IMG/VR virus record: IMGVR_UViG_3300021365_002527
Coordinates: 1 to 22,790 of that record
Strand: one strand, 5' to 3'
DNA length: 22,790 nucleotides
Source: a virus
Every line of letters begins with the position of its first letter. Within the stretch, counting starts at the first letter, position 1. Positions 2,385 through 22,604 of the stretch are shown here, piece by piece. The notes beneath the pieces were generated by a model. It made no database searches. It had not been told where the DNA came from and saw nothing but the letters and a program-made list of their open reading frames with translations. The position numbers were made by a program, and so were the translations under genes.

Positions 2385-2385
<1 letters not shown>
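2128..2385 (-). CDS. Hypothetical protein (85 aa) downstream of groEL
   Basis: This 85-residue protein has a Trp-containing charged body and a C-terminus rich in Pro, Lys and Tyr (VKPPPVKSYSLYGDRD). Its ATG overlaps the groEL stop codon (TAATG), so it is probably translationally coupled to groEL. I do not recognise the family. The position suggests co-expression with the chaperones, but a direct role is only a guess. It ends about 80 bases before the operon terminator. Confidence 0.65.
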
Positions 2386-4292
<1,907 letters not shown>

Positions 4293-4595: not shown

Positions 4596-4627
4596 TGAAT
4601 ATACGAATAAAATTGCGCTAGGACACG
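4596..4627 (-). promoter_or_regulatory. Probable promoter of the chaperonin operon
   Basis: The minus strand reads CGTG, 20 nt, then TATATTCA, followed by a 21-nt A/T-rich leader to the ATG at 4574. The -7 box and the preceding TTCG match the other promoters in the window. The -33 box is weak (CGTG instead of TTTG). Confidence 0.5.
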
Positions 4628-5090: not shown

Positions 5091-5121
5091 TAAAAATATA
5101 ACAGCGTGCCCTAGCTACAAT
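5091..5121 (-). promoter_or_regulatory. Possible promoter of hsp20
   Basis: The minus strand has ATTG, 19 nt, then TATTTTTA, or alternatively TATATTTT two bases upstream with a 17-nt spacer. It is about 40 bases before the hsp20 ATG. The fit to the Bacteroidota pattern is moderate. Confidence 0.4.
5103..5115 (-). repeat. 13-nt inverted repeat flanking hsp20, right arm
   Basis: The minus strand GCTAGGGCACGCT matches the plus-strand arm at 4617-4629 with one mismatch. It lies in the spacer of the possible hsp20 promoter. Confidence 0.45.
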
Positions 5122-6511: not shown

Positions 6512-7441
6512 TTAAAAACTAAAAATTAGATTTCGGTATGGGTTCATGTTTAATTCCCACCCTAAATCGTTATAAAACCCTTGTAATTTACTTTCTAAAA
6601 TAGATTCAAATGCTCTATTTTTATCAGCATACTTATCCAATAATGTAATGATTTTCTCTGGGATATCAAAATCTAAGAACGCAAGAGCATCAATTTTGTA
6701 TGGATTTTCTTTTAAATAAATCCACTTAACTTTATCACCTTGAGTAATTTTAGAATGTTGTTTATCTAACTTCCAAAATGTAAGTAAATCATTGTACTTA
6801 ATAGCTGCTTTTACTGGGGCAGGAGCACCTTGATTAATAGAAGAAAACATTTCTCCTGGTCTAGGGGGTGATGCTAAGTATTTATCTAATGTTTTTACAC
6901 GAGTAGGATTACCTAGAATGGTAAGGCTAGTATCTGGTGATAATATTTTGGTTCTAAAGTCTTTTAGTAAAGTATCAATTTCATCTTGTGGGGCACCTTT
7001 AATAACTCTCTGTAGTATGTCCTTAAAGAAATTACCAAATATTTTAGGGTAATTAGATTTCATAAATTCTAACCCCTTGATATCTAAATCATCAGTTGGG
7101 ACACCTTCTTTTTTAGTAATCCATTGAGCATATCTACGAGTAGCCCTAAAATAACCAGCACGAATCATACACTCTGTTTTCATCTCAAGTCTATGAGATT
7201 TAACATTAAACGCTTCTAACGCTAATGTATCATATGATTTAGTAATTAAATCTTGGTATATAAGTGCGATTTCCTCTAGTTTTTCATCTCGTTCCTCCTC
7301 TGACATATCATCAAAGTTAGGGTTAAGTTTTCTAAGCATAGGTTCAGCATTGTAATAATTAGAATCTGTATCTACATAGACGCAGTAGTTTTCATCTTCT
7401 TTATCACATATAAACCAAGGTGTGCTTTCTAATTGTTTCAT
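6512..7441 (-). CDS. Family B DNA polymerase, C-terminal piece (palm motif C and thumb)
   Basis: This 309-residue protein holds the missing C-terminal part of the T4-type polymerase. Motif C, YVDTDS, is at 22-27 with catalytic Asp24 and Asp26. A basic RRYAQW segment follows near residue 100, corresponding to the conserved KKRY element of family B polymerases. The C-terminal tail ends YRNLIFSF, resembling the clamp-binding tail of gp43 (FDMFDF). It lacks motifs A and B and the exonuclease, which lie in the piece at 7900-9693. The two pieces total 906 residues, close to the 898 of T4 gp43, so nothing large is missing. Its ATG overlaps the stop of the Smr-like gene (ATGA). The protein must associate with the N-terminal piece to be active. 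Confidence 0.92.
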   Translation of the reverse strand: MKQLESTPWFICDKEDENYCVYVDTDSNYYNAEPMLRKLNPNFDDMSEEERDEKLEEIALIYQDLITKSYDTLALEAFNVKSHRLEMKTECMIRAGYFRATRRYAQWITKKEGVPTDDLDIKGLEFMKSNYPKIFGNFFKDILQRVIKGAPQDEIDTLLKDFRTKILSPDTSLTILGNPTRVKTLDKYLASPPRPGEMFSSINQGAPAPVKAAIKYNDLLTFWKLDKQHSKITQGDKVKWIYLKENPYKIDALAFLDFDIPEKIITLLDKYADKNRAFESILESKLQGFYNDLGWELNMNPYRNLIFSF

Positions 7442-7659
7442 TCACTTATTTGTATTTCACCTAAATTATGAGCTGGAATATAATAAGAATAATCGTGGGC
7501 AGCAAGCCATTTAGTAACTATTCTTTTCATCTCATAAGAATTACCTGTAATAATTCTGTATTGTTTGTAACCAGGTTTTTCCCAAAAGAAAAATTTTATT
7601 AATCTATCTTCTACTTCTTTATGTTTTACACCATGTAAATCTAAACTAGAATTTTGCAT
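7438..7659 (-). CDS. Smr-domain-like small protein between the polymerase pieces
   Basis: This 73-residue protein has the opening LDLHGVKHKEVEDRL at 6-20, matching the LDLHG motif that starts Smr domains. A later IITGNSYEMKRIVTKWL at 37-53 fits the second conserved element, usually TGxG-x-hydrophobic. Smr domains, as in MutS2, can nick or cleave DNA or RNA. The second motif has GNS instead of the usual GxG, so activity is uncertain. The gene overlaps the 86-aa gene by 14 nt and the C-terminal polymerase gene by 4 nt. A mobile nuclease that split the polymerase gene is one explanation; a normal small phage protein is another. Confidence 0.7.
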   Translation of the reverse strand: MQNSSLDLHGVKHKEVEDRLIKFFFWEKPGYKQYRIITGNSYEMKRIVTKWLAAHDYSYYIPAHNLGEIQISE

Positions 7660-7906
7660 CGTCTCCAGGCAATGTAATTATCCCAGCGTCTTTTTGTCCT
7701 TGGGAAGTTAATAATTGTTCTTCAGGGATAATATGAAATTTAAATCCTTTAATTGAGAATTTACCCCCTTGTTTTAACATTTTTCTAAAGAAATTTTGTT
7801 GGACTTCACTCCAACTTTCACTTAAAGCAATAATTTCTTCTTTTTCGAGTTTTCTACCTTCATGTAAAACCTCTACTTTACCTCTAATTGATTGTTTACT
7901 TAGCAT
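7646..7906 (-). CDS. Hypothetical protein (86 aa) between the polymerase pieces
   Basis: This 86-residue basic protein starts MLSKQSIRGKVEVLHEGRKL, with a central helix (SWSEVQQNFFRKMLKQGG) and a strand (KFSIKGFKFHIIPEE). The ATG lies inside the last codons of the N-terminal polymerase piece (7-nt overlap). I do not recognise the family. It is not an intein: there are no splicing blocks and neither polymerase piece is fused to it. It may be a small DNA-binding protein or a relic of the event that split the polymerase. Confidence 0.65.
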   Translation of the reverse strand: MLSKQSIRGKVEVLHEGRKLEKEEIIALSESWSEVQQNFFRKMLKQGGKFSIKGFKFHIIPEEQLLTSQGQKDAGIITLPGDDAKF

Positions 7907-9693
7907 AATTCTATTTCTCCTCTCATTACTTGATTCATATGTTTGTTAGCAAATGCTGCTGACTCTTGGATAATTCGTTGTCCTGATAATGTAATTGCTT
8001 CTGATAGGATAACATTACCATATCTAAAGGAACCTAATGCTGTTGCTCCATAAAGTGAGTTAAGCAAAATTTTCATTGTGTGTTGTTTTAAGTGCATTAA
8101 TTCACCTAATTCTTTATTACCAGCTTTATAAGCATCCTTCATTTTATTTTTAAATACAACCCTTTCATTAAACCATTTGTTTAGAATAGTAGACAATACT
8201 GAATCAAAGTCAGTTCTAAACATTACCCCGTTAGCTGAAACTGCTAGATTTTCACTTTCAATTAGATCAATTAAATCCTTAATTTTAATATTAGTATTAC
8301 TACGTTTAGCATTTTGAACTAATACAGAACGATCCTGATCCATTTTCTTTAGATCGTTTAAGGCATATCTACAATTAAAAATTTCTTTATTTTCAACCAT
8401 TACCTTTTCATCAGGCATTATAATCCTCCCTACTAAAGTTTCTTTACCAATGTTTAAGGACATAATAATTGAAGGATATAGTGATGTTAAATCTTCATCA
8501 AACATATAGTTAAAAATACCTGCTGTAGGGCAAAATAAATAACCACCAGCATAGTTCTTTTTATTGATTGGGTTTGGATCACGAGCTGGTGGGGCAATAC
8601 CTTCACTTAATAGGTAAGCTGAGATGGCTCCATCTTGGGTTTTTGTGTTAGCATATACCTCACTATAATTGTGTTTACCTTTGTGTGATAGATTTTTTAC
8701 AAGTGCTAGGTAATCTAACTTTTCATCTAGTAATTTAAGGATTTCAACATCTCGAAAGTTATATTGAATAAACTTATAGATATCATCTTCAAATAAATTA
8801 TCAAGATTACCTTCGTATTCAATTTTATTTAATCCAGTATATTTTTCACCAATAACATCTAGTTTGTATGAAGGTTCATCCCTGAAGCTAAATTTTTTAT
8901 GGACTCTCATGTAATCTAAAGACTCAACACCTACAATGTCTACATACATATCTTGTTTGTACCATCTGGCTTTTATCTCACCTGTGTTTTGATCCTTGTA
9001 TTTAGCTGATTTACGGGTTTTGACTATTCCTAAAGGAGATAAACTAGTAGCTGCTTTTTTAGATAAAACCTTTTCAATTCTATAATAAAGGTAAGGAATA
9101 TCAAAATAATCACTATTCCACCCAATAATAATATCAGGATTCATTTCCTTAAACAATTTAACAAAAGTCTTTAACAATTCTGTTTCTGTAGTAACAGGAA
9201 TTATTTCTTTGTTTCGGGCTTTAGTATGGTTTAATTGTTTTTTCTTATCTAAAATAATAATTGACCACTTATCCTCTTGTTTATCAAACCAAGCAATTGA
9301 AGTAACTGGTTTTGGAGCATCTTCAATGTATTCTTCAGTAAGTGCACCTCCCATTTCAATCTCGATATCAAAAAATACCTCTCTGTGTCCTGTAGAAGGA
9401 TCATCATTAATTCCATATTTTTCAATAAGGAATTTTTGATAAGCTGGCATATCGTGGAAGTGAAGACCAGGTGTGTTTTTATCCTTATACATTGGATTTT
9501 TAGAAAATCTCCAATTTGTAATAGGTTTTACAAATTCACCATTTAGACCTTTTAGAGTAGAATCTTGTTTAGAACAATTAACATAAGCAGTATTTTTATA
9601 TTCTACTACTTGATGTTTTCCATCTTCTTCCCAAAGATGCATTTCATACAAGTTATGGTCTAATTTTTTACCTTGATAGCACTTTTTATACAT
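7900..9693 (-). CDS. Family B DNA polymerase, N-terminal piece (exonuclease, motifs A and B)
   Basis: This 597-residue protein is the front two thirds of a T4 gp43-type replicative polymerase. The 3'-5' exonuclease shows Exo I (FFDIEIE, Asp109 and Glu111), Exo II (GWNSDYFDIP, Asp198) and Exo III (YNFRDV, Asp315). Polymerase motif A, DLTSLYPSII, starts at Asp401, and motif B, KILLNSLYGA, at 541-550. It then stops about 45 residues after motif B, before motif C. The last residues GEIELC arise where the stop overlaps the next ATG. Proofreading could work on this piece alone, but polymerisation needs Asp24/Asp26 of the 309-aa piece. It starts where the MazG-like gene stops. Confidence 0.94.
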   Translation of the reverse strand: MYKKCYQGKKLDHNLYEMHLWEEDGKHQVVEYKNTAYVNCSKQDSTLKGLNGEFVKPITNWRFSKNPMYKDKNTPGLHFHDMPAYQKFLIEKYGINDDPSTGHREVFFDIEIEMGGALTEEYIEDAPKPVTSIAWFDKQEDKWSIIILDKKKQLNHTKARNKEIIPVTTETELLKTFVKLFKEMNPDIIIGWNSDYFDIPYLYYRIEKVLSKKAATSLSPLGIVKTRKSAKYKDQNTGEIKARWYKQDMYVDIVGVESLDYMRVHKKFSFRDEPSYKLDVIGEKYTGLNKIEYEGNLDNLFEDDIYKFIQYNFRDVEILKLLDEKLDYLALVKNLSHKGKHNYSEVYANTKTQDGAISAYLLSEGIAPPARDPNPINKKNYAGGYLFCPTAGIFNYMFDEDLTSLYPSIIMSLNIGKETLVGRIIMPDEKVMVENKEIFNCRYALNDLKKMDQDRSVLVQNAKRSNTNIKIKDLIDLIESENLAVSANGVMFRTDFDSVLSTILNKWFNERVVFKNKMKDAYKAGNKELGELMHLKQHTMKILLNSLYGATALGSFRYGNVILSEAITLSGQRIIQESAAFANKHMNQVMRGEIELC

Positions 9694-11029: not shown

Positions 11030-11061
11030 TGAATGTACGAAACTATTTTATAAAGCCCAAA
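11030..11061 (-). promoter_or_regulatory. Promoter of the folE-polymerase operon
   Basis: The minus strand has a perfect TTTG, exactly 20 nt, then TACATTCA. The TTTG box lies inside the last codons of the phosphoribosyltransferase gene. A short leader leads to the folE ATG at 11009. No hairpin occupies the spacer here. Confidence 0.65.
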
Positions 11062-14225: not shown

Positions 14226-15068
14226 TTACTTAACTAATTGTTCTTTTACATATTCTGAAAGTACTTGTTCTACATAAATTCTAGCTGTTTCATAACTAAC
14301 AGGACCTGTTTCATCTGCATAAGCTACAGGATCTGGGCGTCCTAATTTAAGGAATGCTTCAATGCGCTCTACACTAGAGGCTGATTTGTAATCTGAATAC
14401 CAATTACCTGATACTCCTGTGAGTTTTTGTTGTGGGATCCAAATTGGTTTATAAGAAGTGTTGGTGCGAGAATACACCTCATCAAAATCGATGTTTAAAT
14501 ACTCACATAATACCTCTCCATCTTTTAAGATGTCAAACTTATCACCTTGAAGGTAGGGGGTAAAATAACCTACATTATCTACATCCCAGTTACCCATTCT
14601 AAAAGCATGATCATCAGCATCTCTCCATTCTTGACGACAATCAGGATAAATAGCATGATCACCAGCATGAATACCTAAAGCGATATCTGTTTGCTCTTCT
14701 GTTTTGTTAGCTACTGAAAGAGCAACTGCTTGAACTAATGAAGCAAAGATTTTATTACGGTTGGGAACAACAGTAGCTTTCATGTTGTCTTCCTCATAAT
14801 GTCCTTCTGGGACTTCATCTCCACCTGTTACAAGTGCTGAATCTAGTAAGTCAACTAGTCCATCTAAATGGATTTGACGATAATTAACATCATATCCACT
14901 AGTATTTAAGTAATCTACTAGTGCTTGAGCACGCTCAAGTTCAACTACGTGTTTTTGACCATAGTTAAAGCTTAATGCTGTAACGGTATCGTATTCTTTG
15001 ATAGCTCTTAACAATAGGGTGCTGCTATCCATTCCACCACTTAACGAAATTACACAGTGTTTTGCCAT
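14226..15068 (-). CDS. queC: QueC-like 7-cyano-7-deazaguanine synthase, zinc cysteines absent
   Basis: QueC uses ATP and ammonia to turn 7-carboxy-7-deazaguanine first into the amide and then into preQ0. This 280-residue protein keeps the PP-loop SGGMDSST at 10-17, FNYGQKH and the YPDCRQEW segment. Where QueC normally has the zinc motif Cys-x-n-CxxCxxC, this protein has TNTSY and then SDYKSASSVERIEAF, with no cysteine in the last 90 residues. The four zinc ligands are therefore replaced. The family match is otherwise clear. It may stabilise this region differently, stop at the 7-amido product, or be a phage-specific QueC subgroup. It is about 45 aa longer than typical QueC. It has its own terminator-promoter upstream (15127-15158). 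Confidence 0.9.
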   Translation of the reverse strand: MAKHCVISLSGGMDSSTLLLRAIKEYDTVTALSFNYGQKHVVELERAQALVDYLNTSGYDVNYRQIHLDGLVDLLDSALVTGGDEVPEGHYEEDNMKATVVPNRNKIFASLVQAVALSVANKTEEQTDIALGIHAGDHAIYPDCRQEWRDADDHAFRMGNWDVDNVGYFTPYLQGDKFDILKDGEVLCEYLNIDFDEVYSRTNTSYKPIWIPQQKLTGVSGNWYSDYKSASSVERIEAFLKLGRPDPVAYADETGPVSYETARIYVEQVLSEYVKEQLVK

Positions 15069-15126: not shown

Positions 15127-15158
15127 TAAATGTATAAATGGGGGGTTAAACCCCCCAT
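15127..15158 (-). promoter_or_regulatory. Probable promoter of the queC operon
   Basis: The minus strand has TACATTTA as a -7 box. The upstream -33 position is occupied by the GATGG end of the terminator stem, a poor match to TTTG. The position just after a terminator matches the other operon starts. Confidence 0.4.
15138..15158 (-). terminator. Terminator-like G/C hairpin
   Basis: The minus strand ATGGGGGGTT pairs with AACCCCCCAT around a one-base centre (perfect palindrome), followed by TTAT. It is 6 bases after the stop of the 59-aa gene. The T-tract is short, so termination may be partial. Confidence 0.6.
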
Positions 15159-15163
15159 CTTTA

Positions 15164-17907: not shown

Positions 17908-18097
17908 CGCTTGGATCTATTATTGGTATATTTTTGTATTTGGGAATATACGCATCCCCTTCCTCATCTACAACCTGTTTTTGAGGAGGTTTTGGGATAA
18001 GGTTTGGGGCATTTTGACGCGCCCACCTTACATAGCCTGGGTCTATTAGCTCAACATCAACTAATGTATAACCTTTGTATTTTCCGTATCTAAACAT
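17897..18097 (-). CDS. Small protein with a DUF3820/exodeoxyribonuclease-X-tail-like motif (66 aa)
   Basis: This 66-residue protein starts MFRYGKYKGYTLVDVELIDPGYVRWARQN. That GKYKG...DPGYVRWA pattern matches small domains found alone (DUF3820 type) or at the end of exonuclease X-like proteins, presumed to bind nucleic acid. The rest is Pro/Lys-rich and acidic. The gene overlaps its neighbours by 8 and 11 nt, typical of this operon. Function is not established. Confidence 0.6.
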   Translation of the reverse strand: MFRYGKYKGYTLVDVELIDPGYVRWARQNAPNLIPKPPQKQVVDEEGDAYIPKYKNIPIIDPSDAF

Positions 18098-18371
18098 CTA
18101 ATGTGTTGCCTAGTTCAATATTTTCCCACTTGATTTTTGGAGTAGTGGGATTATCCAAAACATCAAATGTAAGTAAGATTAACCCTTGTTTGGTAATTGA
18201 TTTAACACTCGCTATCTTACCTAATGTGCTTAATTCTTTAACAAAAGCCATCGAGTATTTTTCATCAGGGTTTTGTGGAACAAATTCCAATACCTTTTTT
18301 CTTGAATATCTATTAAAAACAGTAAATTCAAATTTTTCTGTTGCTGTTTCGAAATGCTTTTTCATGTCCAT
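18090..18371 (-). CDS. Hypothetical protein (93 aa)
   Basis: This 93-residue protein has alternating strands and helices (EKFEFTVFNRYSRKKVLEF; SITKQGLILLTFDVLDN). No motif I recognise. It is the first gene after the terminator-promoter at 18395-18426, with a leader containing AAAGGTTATG before the start. It heads the unit that runs down to dpdA and the 59-aa gene. Confidence 0.65.
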   Translation of the reverse strand: MDMKKHFETATEKFEFTVFNRYSRKKVLEFVPQNPDEKYSMAFVKELSTLGKIASVKSITKQGLILLTFDVLDNPTTPKIKWENIELGNTLDV

Positions 18372-18394: not shown

Positions 18395-18426
18395 TGAATA
18401 TAAGAAGCCCCTTTCGGGGCTCCAAA
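18395..18426 (-). promoter_or_regulatory. Bacteroidota-type promoter with a terminator in its spacer
   Basis: The minus strand has TTTG, exactly 20 nt, then TATATTCA. The 20-nt spacer is GAGCCCCGAAAGGGGCTTCT, which is the terminator hairpin. It drives the 93-aa gene operon. Confidence 0.75.
18406..18421 (-). terminator. Intrinsic terminator with GAAA loop
   Basis: The minus strand AGCCCC pairs with GGGGCT around a GAAA tetraloop and is followed by TCTTATATT. It lies about 25 bases after the lipoprotein stop and should end that transcript. Confidence 0.7.
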
Positions 18427-18447
18427 TATTTTGTATGTTTTTTTTAA

Positions 18448-19464
18448 TTAGAGTGCGCCTTTTTCAGCAGCCATCGTCCAATCAAATACTGTTAAGTCAG
18501 CTCCTACAGTAGCATCAATCATAACTGATGTAGCTGAATCTGCTTCAATTGTAGCAGGGGTAATAGTATAATCGTAAGAAACAAATCCTAAAGCACCATC
18601 CCTAAAATGAAAATCTACATTACCATCACTTGAGATAAATGTTCCTTCTTCTAAAGTAAATGCAGGATTAAGATTACCTTCTCCCCCATCTAATTCTAAA
18701 GCATGGTCTGAGTTTGAACCTTCAATTCCTACATAGTTAGTAATTGTTCCGAACCAACCTTGATCAATATCAAAAGCATCATCGCCTTGTGCCCATACTA
18801 ATAAGTTTGAAGCATTTACACAACCACCGAAGAATTCGATTCCATCATCTAAATTACCTACAACTTCAATATGGTCAATAGTAGTAGCTCTACCAACACC
18901 ACCAAGTGTTAGACCATTTAATTCATTACCACCACCTAATAAAGTACCAGCGTGGCGAATTGAAACATACCTTAAAGTACCTGAGTTATCCATCTGGTCA
19001 TCACCACCATAAAGACCAAATTCATCATTTACCGGAACACCTTCAATGTTTGCTGGTGTAGCATCTGCTGAAATTGGGGCATTACCTAGTACAACAATAC
19101 CTCCCCAAAGACCTTGGTCAGTTTCATCTAAATTATTACCTGTATCATATATAGAGGTAAATACAATAGGTGAATCAACTGTACCTTGAGCATCAATTTT
19201 ACCATTACGAGCTACAATTAGAGCAGTAGATAAAGAACCTTGACCATCTCTTGCTTTAATTAAAGTACCAGGTTGAATAGTTAAAGTAGCACCTTCACCT
19301 ACTACAACTTTACCTGCCATTTCATAAATGGTATCTGAATACCAAGTTACATCTTCTGAAATTAGTCCTGTTATGATACTTTCTTTAGGACCTTCTACAG
19401 GGGGATTTTTTTCACATGAAGTGAAAGCTAAAACTGCTGTTAAAGCTAAAACGATTTTTTTCAT
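18448..19464 (-). CDS. Exported lipoprotein with beta-helix repeats
   Basis: This 338-residue protein has an N-terminal signal of type II: a Lys-rich start, a hydrophobic stretch and a lipobox FTSC with Cys17. The mature part has strands and Gly/Asp turns typical of a right-handed beta-helix (GATLTIQPGTLIKAR; RNGKIDAQGTVDSPIVF; DDGIEFFGG; DGGEGNLNPAF). Such proteins occur in Bacteroidota surface systems. The export motif after Cys (EKNPP) is only weakly acidic, so the final location is uncertain. A phage carrying it may alter the host surface, for example to block superinfection. It looks host-derived; its composition and divergent promoter set it apart from the core genes. Confidence 0.85.
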   Translation of the reverse strand: MKKIVLALTAVLAFTSCEKNPPVEGPKESIITGLISEDVTWYSDTIYEMAGKVVVGEGATLTIQPGTLIKARDGQGSLSTALIVARNGKIDAQGTVDSPIVFTSIYDTGNNLDETDQGLWGGIVVLGNAPISADATPANIEGVPVNDEFGLYGGDDQMDNSGTLRYVSIRHAGTLLGGGNELNGLTLGGVGRATTIDHIEVVGNLDDGIEFFGGCVNASNLLVWAQGDDAFDIDQGWFGTITNYVGIEGSNSDHALELDGGEGNLNPAFTLEEGTFISSDGNVDFHFRDGALGFVSYDYTITPATIEADSATSVMIDATVGADLTVFDWTMAAEKGAL

Positions 19465-19488
19465 TACTTATTTAATTTAAATTTCCAT

Positions 19489-19520
19489 TATAGATACGAA
19501 AAATAACTTGGGGAATCAAT
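19489..19520 (-). promoter_or_regulatory. Promoter of the lipoprotein gene
   Basis: The minus strand has ATTG, 20 nt, then TATCTATA, about 25 bases before the ATG. It lies back to back with the leader of the plus-strand MORN-like gene. Confidence 0.55.
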
Positions 19521-19573
19521 TTGACTTTTTTACATTTATATGACGTTAAAATGACTAACTAATATTTATTACC

Positions 19574-19864
19574 ATGAAACGCATTATTATTACATTAGCA
19601 TTACTAATTGGATTAAATCTAAGTGCTCAGGAGAAAAAAGCATATCAGCTTGAAAATGGACTTACCAGAGTAGAAACTTTATACCCAAATGGGGGAATAA
19701 GTCAAGTTAGTTTTTACCTAGAAAATAAGGCATTTGGTACTTGGAAAAAGTACGATGAATCAGGAAATGTTACTATGAAAGCAAAAATGGAGAATGGGCG
19801 ACCTGTTAAGATCACCCACTATCAAAATGGTAATATTATCGTTATTGATAGAAGAAAGGATTAA
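19574..19864 (+). CDS. Exported MORN-repeat-like protein (96 aa)
   Basis: This is the only plus-strand gene. The 96-residue protein has a signal peptide (ITLALLIGLNLSAQ) and then YPNGGISQVSFYLENKAFGTWKKYDESGN and ITHYQNGN, which are MORN/YwqK-like repeats common in flavobacterial secreted proteins. It should be exported, probably to the periplasm or surface. It is divergent from the lipoprotein gene and its stop overlaps the stop of the convergent 186-aa gene (shared TTAA). A host origin and a surface role are likely, but the function is unknown. Confidence 0.78.
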   Translation: MKRIIITLALLIGLNLSAQEKKAYQLENGLTRVETLYPNGGISQVSFYLENKAFGTWKKYDESGNVTMKAKMENGRPVKITHYQNGNIIVIDRRKD

Positions 19865-20421
19865 ACCTTAGGAGTACCCATCAACATTTTGGTAAACATT
19901 TTACCACCGATTTCTCTTTGGTAAGAACCATCATCATTAAATTCGACTTCTTTACCCTTTAATACGTTACGGATGACTTCCTCATCTGTAACTATTGGGG
20001 CACCTTTAGCCTTTAAAATATCTTTTAATTTACCTGATACTTCTACAAAGTGTCCTGGTTGTTTTAAAAGTAGAGCTGTAATATTGACTGCTGCTGATCT
20101 TGCTGGTTTTGTTCCATCATGACCCATAGCTACTGATTTATTACCTGCTGCTCGTTTTTTGGATACTTTAACAGCATCGAATTCAGGATCATCATCTAAA
20201 TCGATAACCATATAATCCGAACCCCTTTCAGCCCCCATTACATCAGATGGTGATTTATAGTTAGGATGACCTCCTATTGAGGCGTAAGCGTTATCGATTA
20301 GATTAAATAATTCAATAGCGAATTCCTCTTTTTCTTCGTCAGTAAGATAAACCCATTTATTTTTAGGGAAATCTTCTGTAAGGGGGTTTTCGGTTAAATA
20401 TTTTTTTAAATCAAAGCTCAT
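19861..20421 (-). CDS. Hypothetical phage protein with shared N-terminal tag (186 aa)
   Basis: This 186-residue protein starts MSFDLKKYLTENPLTED, a tag shared with the next gene upstream (MSFDLKNYLAEG). The body has SDYMVIDLDDDPEFDAVKV, VAMGHDGTKPARSAAV and REIGGKMFTKMLMG. I recall a similar MGHDG-type domain in other phages, where its role is not clear to me. The last codons overlap the end of the plus-strand MORN-like gene. No catalytic residues are recognisable. Confidence 0.65.
   Translation of the reverse strand: MSFDLKKYLTENPLTEDFPKNKWVYLTDEEKEEFAIELFNLIDNAYASIGGHPNYKSPSDVMGAERGSDYMVIDLDDDPEFDAVKVSKKRAAGNKSVAMGHDGTKPARSAAVNITALLLKQPGHFVEVSGKLKDILKAKGAPIVTDEEVIRNVLKGKEVEFNDDGSYQREIGGKMFTKMLMGTPKV
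20402..20421 (-). repeat. 20-nt direct repeat at start codon, copy 1
   Basis: The first 20 bases of the 186-aa gene, ATGAGCTTTGATTTAAAAAA, are identical to those of the 74-aa gene at 20626-20645. They encode the shared MSFDLK start. Confidence 0.8.
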
Positions 20422-20645
20422 TAAATAGTAGGATTCGTTTGTTCATCTTTAATGGCATCTACTAGAGTATCAAATGCTAGTTTAATACTATCGTTCATGT
20501 AAACATCAGCATGATATTCATCATATACTAGTAAATCTAACTTACTAATCAATTCTTTCATCCTGCCACTATGGCCTATTTCAAAATCTGATTGTTCGTT
20601 TTGTAGCTTACCTTCAGCTAGATAATTTTTTAAATCAAAGCTCAT
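20421..20645 (-). CDS. Hypothetical protein with shared N-terminal tag (74 aa)
   Basis: This 74-residue acidic protein starts MSFDLKNYLAEGKLQNEQSD, sharing 9 of the first 12 residues with the neighbouring 186-aa protein. The rest (SKLDLLVYDEYHADVYMND) is helical and unlike the neighbour. Only the tag is duplicated, so the tag is probably an independent functional module, such as a docking or processing sequence. It overlaps the hydrolase gene by 11 nt and its stop overlaps the next ATG. Confidence 0.65.
   Translation of the reverse strand: MSFDLKNYLAEGKLQNEQSDFEIGHSGRMKELISKLDLLVYDEYHADVYMNDSIKLAFDTLVDAIKDEQTNPTI
20626..20645 (-). repeat. 20-nt direct repeat at start codon, copy 2
   Basis: This is identical to 20402-20421 and lies at the start of the 74-aa gene. 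Confidence 0.8.
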
Positions 20646-21120
20646 TTTTACACTTGTTTATTATATCAATAAATATAGGTAAAGGAACTTGATGTCCCAT
20701 TTCCTCAAGAACTATTTTATAATTGAAATTATTTTTAAGCATTATTTTAGTAATGTAAGGGGGGATAACTTCATCATTTTTACCTAACACAACTACTTTA
20801 CGCTCTTGAAGTTCAGCTTGCTCACCCTCAATTGGATATTCAATAGCAGGATCAAAACTACGATTATGAAGAGCAGGATTAAATAGAATAGCTGGGATAC
20901 CATACTTTTCGGCTAATATATCAGCAACATAACCACCCATACTACTACCAATAATGAGATCAGGTTTTAAATCCTGCATTGTAAAAAACATTTTAATGTT
21001 TAAATCAGGATCTTTATAATCCATTTTTGGAGCATGAACTATAAATTCGTTTGCTAGGAAATCAACTTTTGGACCGCCTTGATTACTTTCAAGACCATGT
21101 AAATATAAAACCTTTTTCAT
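20635..21120 (-). CDS. YqiA-like alpha/beta hydrolase (esterase)
   Basis: This 161-residue protein is a compact alpha/beta hydrolase of the YqiA/UPF0227 type. The catalytic triad is visible: Ser60 in GSSMGG at 58-63, Asp116 in GKNDEVIPP, and His143 in MGHQVP. The N-terminal LYLHGLESNQGG at 5-16 is the oxyanion region. Members are esterases with no agreed natural substrate. It is unusual in phages and could act on host lipids or surface esters, which is inference. It begins just after the 55-aa gene ends. Confidence 0.85.
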   Translation of the reverse strand: MKKVLYLHGLESNQGGPKVDFLANEFIVHAPKMDYKDPDLNIKMFFTMQDLKPDLIIGSSMGGYVADILAEKYGIPAILFNPALHNRSFDPAIEYPIEGEQAELQERKVVVLGKNDEVIPPYITKIMLKNNFNYKIVLEEMGHQVPLPIFIDIINKCKNEL

Positions 21121-21121
21121 C

Positions 21122-21289
21122 TTAATACATTTCGCTTACTAAATGACGACGATCATATTCAGCCATTGATAAAGCATACACATCATACCCTTCACTTTCG
21201 GTAACACACTTTTCAACACCATTTTCTCTGATGATGGCTAATTTGTCACCTGTTAACTCACACTTAAAAAATCTAACTAATTGTTTCAT
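21122..21289 (-). CDS. Small hypothetical protein (55 aa)
   Basis: The ATG at 21289 opens a 55-residue frame ending TAA at 21122. The product starts MKQLVRFFKCELTGDKLAII, ends YDRRHLVSEMY, and has two cysteines. No motif is recognisable. It is the first gene after the terminator-promoter at 21325-21356, with the same AAAGGTTATG leader end as the 93-aa gene at 18371. Confidence 0.65.
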   Translation of the reverse strand: MKQLVRFFKCELTGDKLAIIRENGVEKCVTESEGYDVYALSMAEYDRRHLVSEMY

Positions 21290-21324
21290 AACCTTTATTT
21301 TAGGCTCTCACCTCATTTACAGGG

Positions 21325-21356
21325 TAAATATACGAAGGGGCTTTCGCCCCTCCAAA
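21325..21356 (-). promoter_or_regulatory. Bacteroidota-type promoter with a terminator in its spacer
   Basis: The minus strand has TTTG, exactly 20 nt, then TATATTTA. The spacer GAGGGGCGAAAGCCCCTTCG is the terminator hairpin of the preceding gene. It drives the 55-aa gene operon. Confidence 0.75.
21336..21351 (-). terminator. Intrinsic terminator with GAAA loop
   Basis: The minus strand AGGGGC pairs with GCCCCT around GAAA and is followed by TCGTATATTT. It is directly after the stop of the 414-aa membrane protein gene. The T-rich tail is interrupted by C and G. Confidence 0.65.
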
Positions 21357-21359
21357 TAT

Positions 21360-22604
21360 TTAATATGTTATTGTTAAATCTTCGTCGTTATCTTTTTTAG
21401 TTTTATATTCTTGTTTTAAACTACTTTCAAGACGTCTTCTTCTAAATTCACCTAAAAGCATATTAGCTCTAAAATCTTTCATTTTAGCTTCAACATATTC
21501 TTCTTCTGTTGGTGGTTGGGGTTTTTCTTCTTCCTCTAAACCATCAAACATTACTACTGCAGAGATTTTATTTTTAAAATCATCTAATTTATTATTTAAA
21601 ATTTGAATTTCTCTCTCTAGATCTGGGATACGTTGGTCAAAGTTTATTTGTAATTGAGGGTTAATTTTTACTTCATCTTCATCAGGAATAAGATGATCAG
21701 CATTAAATTGATTTCGGAAATCTTCCATTTCTTCTTCTGTCCACATTCCATCATCTACAACTTTTTTTTCTCCGTAAATATTTTCTTTAGTTTTAGGACG
21801 TAATTTTTCAAAGGCAAAGTTAGCAGCAATAACTAAAGCAATAGCTAAAGGATCAAATACAAAGATAATAGTCAATAAAAGGTAGTTTATAATACGATCC
21901 ATTGGTATACCAGTTAACCCTGAAAGGTATTTAAGTGGTCCTAATTCACCTGCTATATCATTACCGGTTTTTACTTCTACTATTTCAGTTTCATATTTAA
22001 ATAGTTGTTCGTTTAAAACATCTACTTTAGTATTAATTTCAGTTTGACGAAAGATAGCTTGGTCTAATTGTTTTTCTAACGCTCTACGAGTTGAACTAGA
22101 AGTTGTAGTAATAATTTGACCGGTTTCTCGGTCTCTATACTGGATTTTATTGTTAGATAAGCCAGACCTAAGGTCACTCACGGCAGTATTAATACTAGTT
22201 TTTTCTTCGTTGTATACCGCGAGTTGTCCCTTTACATTATCTCTTTTAGTTTCTATTAACGCTATTTGAGAATCTATACTTCCAGCTTTAGCTGCTGTTT
22301 CTTGATAAGCGGATGATAAGAAACCATAAATACCCATTGATGTAATTAATACTAACACTACAGCAGCAACTGAGAGGTAATATTTTAATAAACGAGGGAT
22401 TGTTTTACGATACTGGTAGAGTAAAGAGGCTATTACTAATTTTGCTACTTCTAAAGAGGTAGCCATAATAATAACAGCAAATGCTGCTCCAGCAAAAAGT
22501 TTGCTAAGACCGCTAACTGAGTAGAAAGCGGCCGAAGCAGAGACTGACAGGGCAGAGGTTGCGATTATAAAAGGGAATATCCTTTCTTGTATTTTCTTAA
22601 ACAT
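21360..22604 (-). CDS. Multi-pass membrane protein with coiled coil (414 aa)
   Basis: This 414-residue protein has about four hydrophobic segments: near 10-30, 37-60 (FAGAAFAVIIMATSLEVAKL), 76-96 and 237-262 (LLLTIIFVFDPLAIALVIAA). A long charged coiled coil lies between spans three and four (residues about 105-215) and another after 300. I recall similar proteins from marine phages, always without function. Roles in lysis control, membrane remodelling or superinfection exclusion are possible. It ends right at the terminator-promoter element, so it closes its transcription unit. Confidence 0.75.
   Translation of the reverse strand: MFKKIQERIFPFIIATSALSVSASAAFYSVSGLSKLFAGAAFAVIIMATSLEVAKLVIASLLYQYRKTIPRLLKYYLSVAAVVLVLITSMGIYGFLSSAYQETAAKAGSIDSQIALIETKRDNVKGQLAVYNEEKTSINTAVSDLRSGLSNNKIQYRDRETGQIITTTSSSTRRALEKQLDQAIFRQTEINTKVDVLNEQLFKYETEIVEVKTGNDIAGELGPLKYLSGLTGIPMDRIINYLLLTIIFVFDPLAIALVIAANFAFEKLRPKTKENIYGEKKVVDDGMWTEEEMEDFRNQFNADHLIPDEDEVKINPQLQINFDQRIPDLEREIQILNNKLDDFKNKISAVVMFDGLEEEEKPQPPTEEEYVEAKMKDFRANMLLGEFRRRRLESSLKQEYKTKKDNDEDLTITY

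Follow-up and report, generated by a model that had tools for sequence, protein, structure and literature searches.

The T4 late promoter consists of TATAAATA without a -35 element, and every promoter of the N4 virion polymerase requires a hairpin. The promoter of the Bacteroidetes primary sigma factor has a TTTG box at -33 and a TAnnTTTG box at -7 (consensus as quoted in PMC7366714). Intrinsic terminators require a larger distance from the upstream stop codon (PMC4824070), and a polymerase kept on the DNA past such a terminator can restart at a nearby promoter, so that, as Harden et al. suggested, a nearby sense promoter could couple genes (PMC6978380, PMC6978322, PMC11347151). In yeast, bifunctional terminator-promoter elements have been engineered in which one element is intended to end one gene and start another (PMC10298055); they are fusions built for Saccharomyces pathways, unrelated in sequence and mechanism to the phage elements presented here. 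No description of a terminator nested in a promoter in this manner was found in searches of an open-access collection from which most subscription papers are absent.

Terminators and promoters are commonly depicted as distinct features, while in the phage group studied here dozens of them are written in the same letters, in a fixed register. The best explanation, with a probability of roughly three in four, is that every element combines a phage promoter (TTTGG, 19 nt, TATATTYA) with a built-in intrinsic terminator that serves the gene before it, so that a stretch of about 32 letters appears, judging by its sequence, to do both jobs, stopping one unit and starting the next. Such nesting shows how tightly two signals for the same polymerase can be overlaid.

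Nested elements and hairpin-free promoters in the window

The window is a 22,790-nt (22.8-kb) IMG/VR fragment of an uncultured T4-like phage with nearly all of its genes on the minus strand (gene calls in this and all other counts are simple ORF calls). The group to which it belongs is large and consists of uncultured marine phages with, apparently, Bacteroidetes hosts. Among the window genes are phage-borne GroEL (2385-4007) and QueC (14226-15068, minus strand), neighbored by GroES-, Hsp20- and FolE-like genes that were assigned by reading the sequences alone, and a T4-type DNA polymerase B (6512-9693, minus strand) split into genes of 597 and 309 aa with two small genes between them.

An earlier note on this DNA had described two sites in which boxes exactly 20 nt apart enclose a GAAA-loop hairpin, and both are present as described when read on the minus strand. 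The first (21356-21325) reads TTTG GAGGGGCGAAAGCCCCTTCG TATATTTA, with the -33 TTTGG starting at 21356 and the box TATATTTA at 21332-21325. Its hairpin, GGAGGGGC-GAAA-GCCCCTTC (21353-21334), fills the whole spacer and starts just 6 nt past the stop codon of a 414-aa gene with no function assigned (21360-22604, minus strand), whose ortholog occupies the same place in L104. The box lies 35 nt before the ATG of a 55-aa gene (21122-21289, minus strand), which is presumably started from this element and is followed by a UPF0227 hydrolase-like gene (20635-21120). The orthologous site was found in about 10 relatives, in some with the hairpin and in others without it.

The second element (18426-18395, minus strand) reads TTTG GAGCCCCGAAAGGGGCTTCT TATATTCA, with a TTTGG at -33, the box TATATTCA at 18402-18395 and the hairpin GGAGCCCC-GAAA-GGGGCTTC at 18423-18404. 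It is located between a 338-aa gene (18448-19464, minus strand), the stop codon of which is 24 nt from the hairpin, and a 93-aa gene (18090-18371, minus strand) with its ATG 23 nt past the box. In its orthologs the arms are different yet still complementary, or the hairpin is missing.

Two other minus-strand elements (2044-2013 and 1310-1279) were said to follow the same rule with the -33 box inside the stem. The register and the position of the -33 letters held, but these letters are GTTG rather than TTTG. In the element at 2013-2053, GTTGG is part of the 5' arm of a hairpin (2053-2022) with a T6 tract, and the box TATATTTA is at 2020-2013. The element at 1279-1318 is built in the same way, its hairpin (1318-1289) including GTTGG on the 5' side and being followed by a T6 tract and by TATATTTA at 1286-1279; an 83-aa gene (989-1240) lies downstream, and the element is conserved in G023. 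A possible degenerate element precedes queC at 15127-15160 (minus strand), with GGGGGG-TTTAA-CCCCCC followed by TACATTTA; its -33 letters are ATGG and its position weight matrix (PWM) score is below threshold. Folding of the four nested elements was far more stable than that of shuffled sequence (z from -5.2 to -6.2; -5.5 at 21325 and -5.2 at 18395).

Promoters of the same class are also found in the window without a hairpin. One precedes folE at 11030-11061 (TTTGGGCTTTATAAAATAGTTTCG TACATTCA), and a promoter-like site precedes a 263-aa gene at 16928-16897 (TTTGGATTAGCCCCAGCTTTTAAT TATATTTA), both on the minus strand. The latter and a TTTG-N20-TATATTYA match within a gene (14054-14023, minus strand), also hairpin-free, show that the two boxes need not be accompanied by a hairpin. 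A variant without a strong hairpin is located at 4596-4627 (minus strand), before the 93-aa gene adjoining groES (CGTGTCCTAGCGCAATTTTATTCG TATATTCA). Here TTTGG is replaced by CGTGTCCTAGCGC, which is kept nearly letter for letter in about 10 relatives and could possibly be a separate regulatory element; the similar letters AGCGTGCCCTAGC are found near 5104 on the plus strand.

The promoter class

The spacing of the two boxes is strict. Across 30 contigs, related to the window phage or picked by pattern, TTTG preceded TATATTYA by 20 nt at 95 sites, while every other spacing from 5 to 40 gave between 0 and 9; a PWM detected 181 sites against a single one in reversed sequence, which excludes chance. 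Scanning the whole of IMG/VR for TTTGG-N15-TTCGTATATTYA returned at least 120 stretches, compared with 4 when the spacer was one base longer and 31 when it was one base shorter. The consensus is A-[CT]TTGG-nnn-CCYRAAA-nnnn-TTCG-TATATTYA-C, and phage contigs carrying it reach 412 kb. In a set of 151 non-redundant sites collected without regard to hairpins (the hairpin-blind set), 127 are located within 120 nt upstream of a same-strand start codon. The pattern announced from the window alone is general among the relatives, with a hairpin in a minority of sites.

The boxes resemble those of the Bacteroidetes sigma-A promoter, with TTTG upstream and TA..TT downstream at a similar distance, but the phage box ends in YA instead of TG, the spacer is fixed at 20 nt and the additional motifs CCYRAAA and TTCG are conserved. 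The host form TAnnTTTG did not follow any of 107 phage hairpins. The T4 late promoter differs from the phage promoter, which has the box TATATTYA plus a strict upstream TTGG. Of 301 Flavobacteriaceae genomes, only one, a Winogradskyella MAG, contained the extended motif; at least one of its three matches is on a contig that shares synteny with the window and is thus of phage origin. Taken together, the position before start codons, the look of an altered Bacteroidetes promoter and the absence from 300 host-family genomes indicate that the TTTGG/TATATTYA consensus is almost certainly a phage promoter, and it appears to define a new phage-specific class, which could be useful in the annotation of uncultured marine phages.

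There is scarcely any room for the contrary reading that no promoter exists and that TATATTYA is simply how a conserved type of terminator ends in its T-rich tail. The box does overlap the U-tract, and hairpin and box do co-occur; however, most boxes with TTTGG at the exact spacing are hairpin-free, the boxes lie shortly before start codons, and for those that bear hairpins TTG is found at 23 nt and hardly at any other distance.

Genes for single- or multi-subunit RNA polymerases were not detected at cut-off in 14 large phage records, and the host polymerase, perhaps modified, is therefore the likely reader of the promoter. A phage sigma factor was considered and rejected, as Sigma70_r4 exceeded the cut-off in only one of the 14 records. 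A weak match, below cut-off, to the phage-type RNA polymerase family was seen in a 1706-aa open frame of G332 (155530-155748, record of L112). Sites matching the sigma-70 consensus were no more frequent than in shuffled sequence, Rfam and tRNA scans gave no matches, and a BLAST search of the 32-mer against isolated phages returned unrelated hairpins only, mostly from phages of enteric bacteria.

Hairpins in the promoter spacer

Hairpins occupy the spacer far more often than the promoter consensus would produce by itself. In the hairpin-blind set, with redundancy removed at 75% identity or identical sequence and several contigs coming from overlapping phage lineages, 17 of the 151 sites carried a hairpin that reached -8 kcal/mol, where 0.96 +/- 0.89 were expected from column shuffles that preserve the consensus; at -12 kcal/mol the count was 14 against 0.06. 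The enrichment over shuffled controls, which the earlier note had made its test, is thus borne out. An initial count of 28 of 91 sites with a hairpin was dropped as biased, since some contigs had been picked via the hairpin pattern.

In the stems, pairing is kept while the letters change. A search that placed no constraint on the inner arms gave 54 sites of the GAAA/GAGA class, 53 of them fully complementary, in nine paired combinations, and the covariation score was 0.506 compared with 0.161 after shuffling, also well above slid controls. Arm letters interchange with pairing kept (GGGC/GCCC, CCCC/GGGG, ACCC/GGGT, GAGC/GCTC), and at orthologous loci the promoter is kept while the arms are swapped or the hairpin is lost. 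A GARA motif in the middle of the spacer is conserved in hairpin-free promoters as well, and the loop of the GAAA class coincides with it, which explains the exact fit. Outside the fixed columns, G-T wobbles numbered 10 and A-C 5, so this strand asymmetry does not prove that the stem originated at the RNA level. Pairing of sequence upstream of the -33 box with the -7 box was tried for the GAAA class and showed only a weak trend (p = 0.07).

An inverted repeat across a core promoter has the usual form of an operator, and the GAAA class recurs often with similar letters, as might be expected of a site for a dimeric repressor or activator. The free exchange of arm letters, the variable center and stem length and the location of the sites after stop codons make such a role highly implausible.

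The hairpin could also act as DNA, in the form of a cruciform or single-strand hairpin that is recognized by a polymerase or sensitive to supercoiling, as at the N4 virion polymerase promoters. Perfect inverted repeats do lie inside the promoter and single-stranded DNA folds too, but in 133 of the 151 sites, or about nine in ten promoters of the class, no hairpin reached -6 kcal/mol, unlike in the N4 promoters. In addition, the hairpin center shifts relative to the boxes, the hairpin is lost at orthologous promoters and the large phage records yielded no RNA polymerase gene at cut-off. This alternative is accordingly very improbable. As most promoters are hairpin-free, the hairpin is an addition that is not needed for promoter recognition, and the suggestion that hairpin formation or supercoiling regulates the promoter found no support.

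Probable terminator function and possible polymerase hand-off

A folded-in terminator is favored by the position of the hairpins. Hairpin-bearing promoters are at a median of 31 nt from the upstream stop codon and the others at 5 nt (p = 6e-6), which fits the distance required by terminators (PMC4824070). The association of hairpin and promoter was also obtained from strong hairpins located within 50 nt past stop codons in 15 phage contigs, collected with promoters ignored. TATRTT followed 83 of these 154 hairpins and 17 of 154 when the same hairpins were taken antisense, and TTG was found exactly 23 nt before TATRTT in 58 of 154 against 1 of 154 antisense; no other distance exceeded 4 hairpins. 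With stems restricted to Watson-Crick pairs, a promoter was in register in 44 of 100 sense and 0 of 100 antisense cases, and with a T-rich-tail filter, 58 of 139 hairpins were nested (15 of 26 in one 172-kb phage). Contigs G331-G343 had been selected by promoter or class-A patterns; the share of nested hairpins may therefore be higher than in phages overall, but the sense-antisense contrast within these contigs is unaffected. In host-family DNA, mostly two genomes picked blindly from the family, one of them with 48% G+C, 0 of 47 post-stop hairpins were at the promoter spacing.

The box positions are constant in the nested cases, while the position and geometry of the stem vary: the -33 letters belong to the 5' arm in 37 cases, overlap the base of the stem in 21 and extend into the loop in 2. 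The stop-to-hairpin distance has a median of 18.5 nt, and in 59 of 60 cases the following gene has the same orientation, with its start at a median of 20.5 nt past the box. The exact register would follow from the promoter fixing the boxes, with the stem free to vary provided that it ends immediately upstream of the T-rich -7 region. As anatomy, the claim that a single 32-nt element closes one unit and opens the next is well supported by the hairpin-blind and post-stop counts.

Post-stop position, larger stop distance and a T-rich tail on the promoter strand all fit an intrinsic terminator of the upstream gene. We infer that the element is transcribed and that its hairpin terminates. Upstream transcription would form the hairpin in the RNA of the arriving polymerase, which would be released at the T-rich stretch that doubles as the -7 region, and a polymerase would then initiate the next gene at the boxes which that element contains.

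The nested hairpins share with intrinsic terminators a GC-rich stem-loop past the stop codon, a T-rich stretch after it and loops of the common GNRA type, but their U-tracts vary. Scores of the d'Aubenton-Carafa type were +12 at 1279 and 2013, both with T6, +6.3 at 18395 and -5.7, a failing value, at 21325; ordinary terminators of a related phage scored about +70. Promoter letters (CGTATA) break up the U-tract in the GAAA class, while in the non-GAAA nested classes a T5-T7 tract directly follows the stem. The 21325 hairpin also starts within the distance of a stop codon at which termination is blocked by ribosomes in E. coli. Both points count against the terminator reading, and the GAAA-loop elements at 21325 and 18395 are likely weak terminators by E. 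coli rules.

Their poor U-tracts, low scores and, at 21325, the adjacent stop codon could instead indicate a real RNA structure that caps or processes the 3' end of the upstream RNA or slows the polymerase, with mostly read-through. The T5-T7 tracts straight after the stem in other classes, and distances after stop codons in the range of ordinary terminators, render this reading unlikely and favor the terminator folded into a promoter.

Termination may also aid the next start. By analogy with the recycling studies, it is conceivable, though doubtful, that the released polymerase remains bound to the DNA and initiates again at that site, handing over from operon to operon; upstream transcription would then drive the downstream promoter, and a genome read mostly in one direction would be read as a relay. 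Those studies used E. coli polymerase and test templates with separate promoter and terminator, whereas in the phage both are the same DNA. Since a polymerase can stay and restart after intrinsic termination (PMC6978380, PMC6978322), the nested arrangement is a natural test case. Nested elements and matched hairpin-free promoters at orthologous loci provide natural templates, bearing on whether a retained polymerase restarts in vivo at the nearest promoter, a question raised by single-molecule work (PMC6978322).

Variants of the arrangement were observed in other contigs. A further nested class occurs in G333 (L304-L312) and G334 (L313-L321), for example GGCTCCC-ATA-GGGAGCC between TTGG and TATATTTA, and in G336 (L322-L330) a TATGTTYA box variant follows many CTTGGGAAACCAAG terminators. 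A second (late) promoter motif may be represented by ATATGTATAA or ATATTTATAA, which follow terminators near 12.8 and 19.9 kb of G001 (L052).
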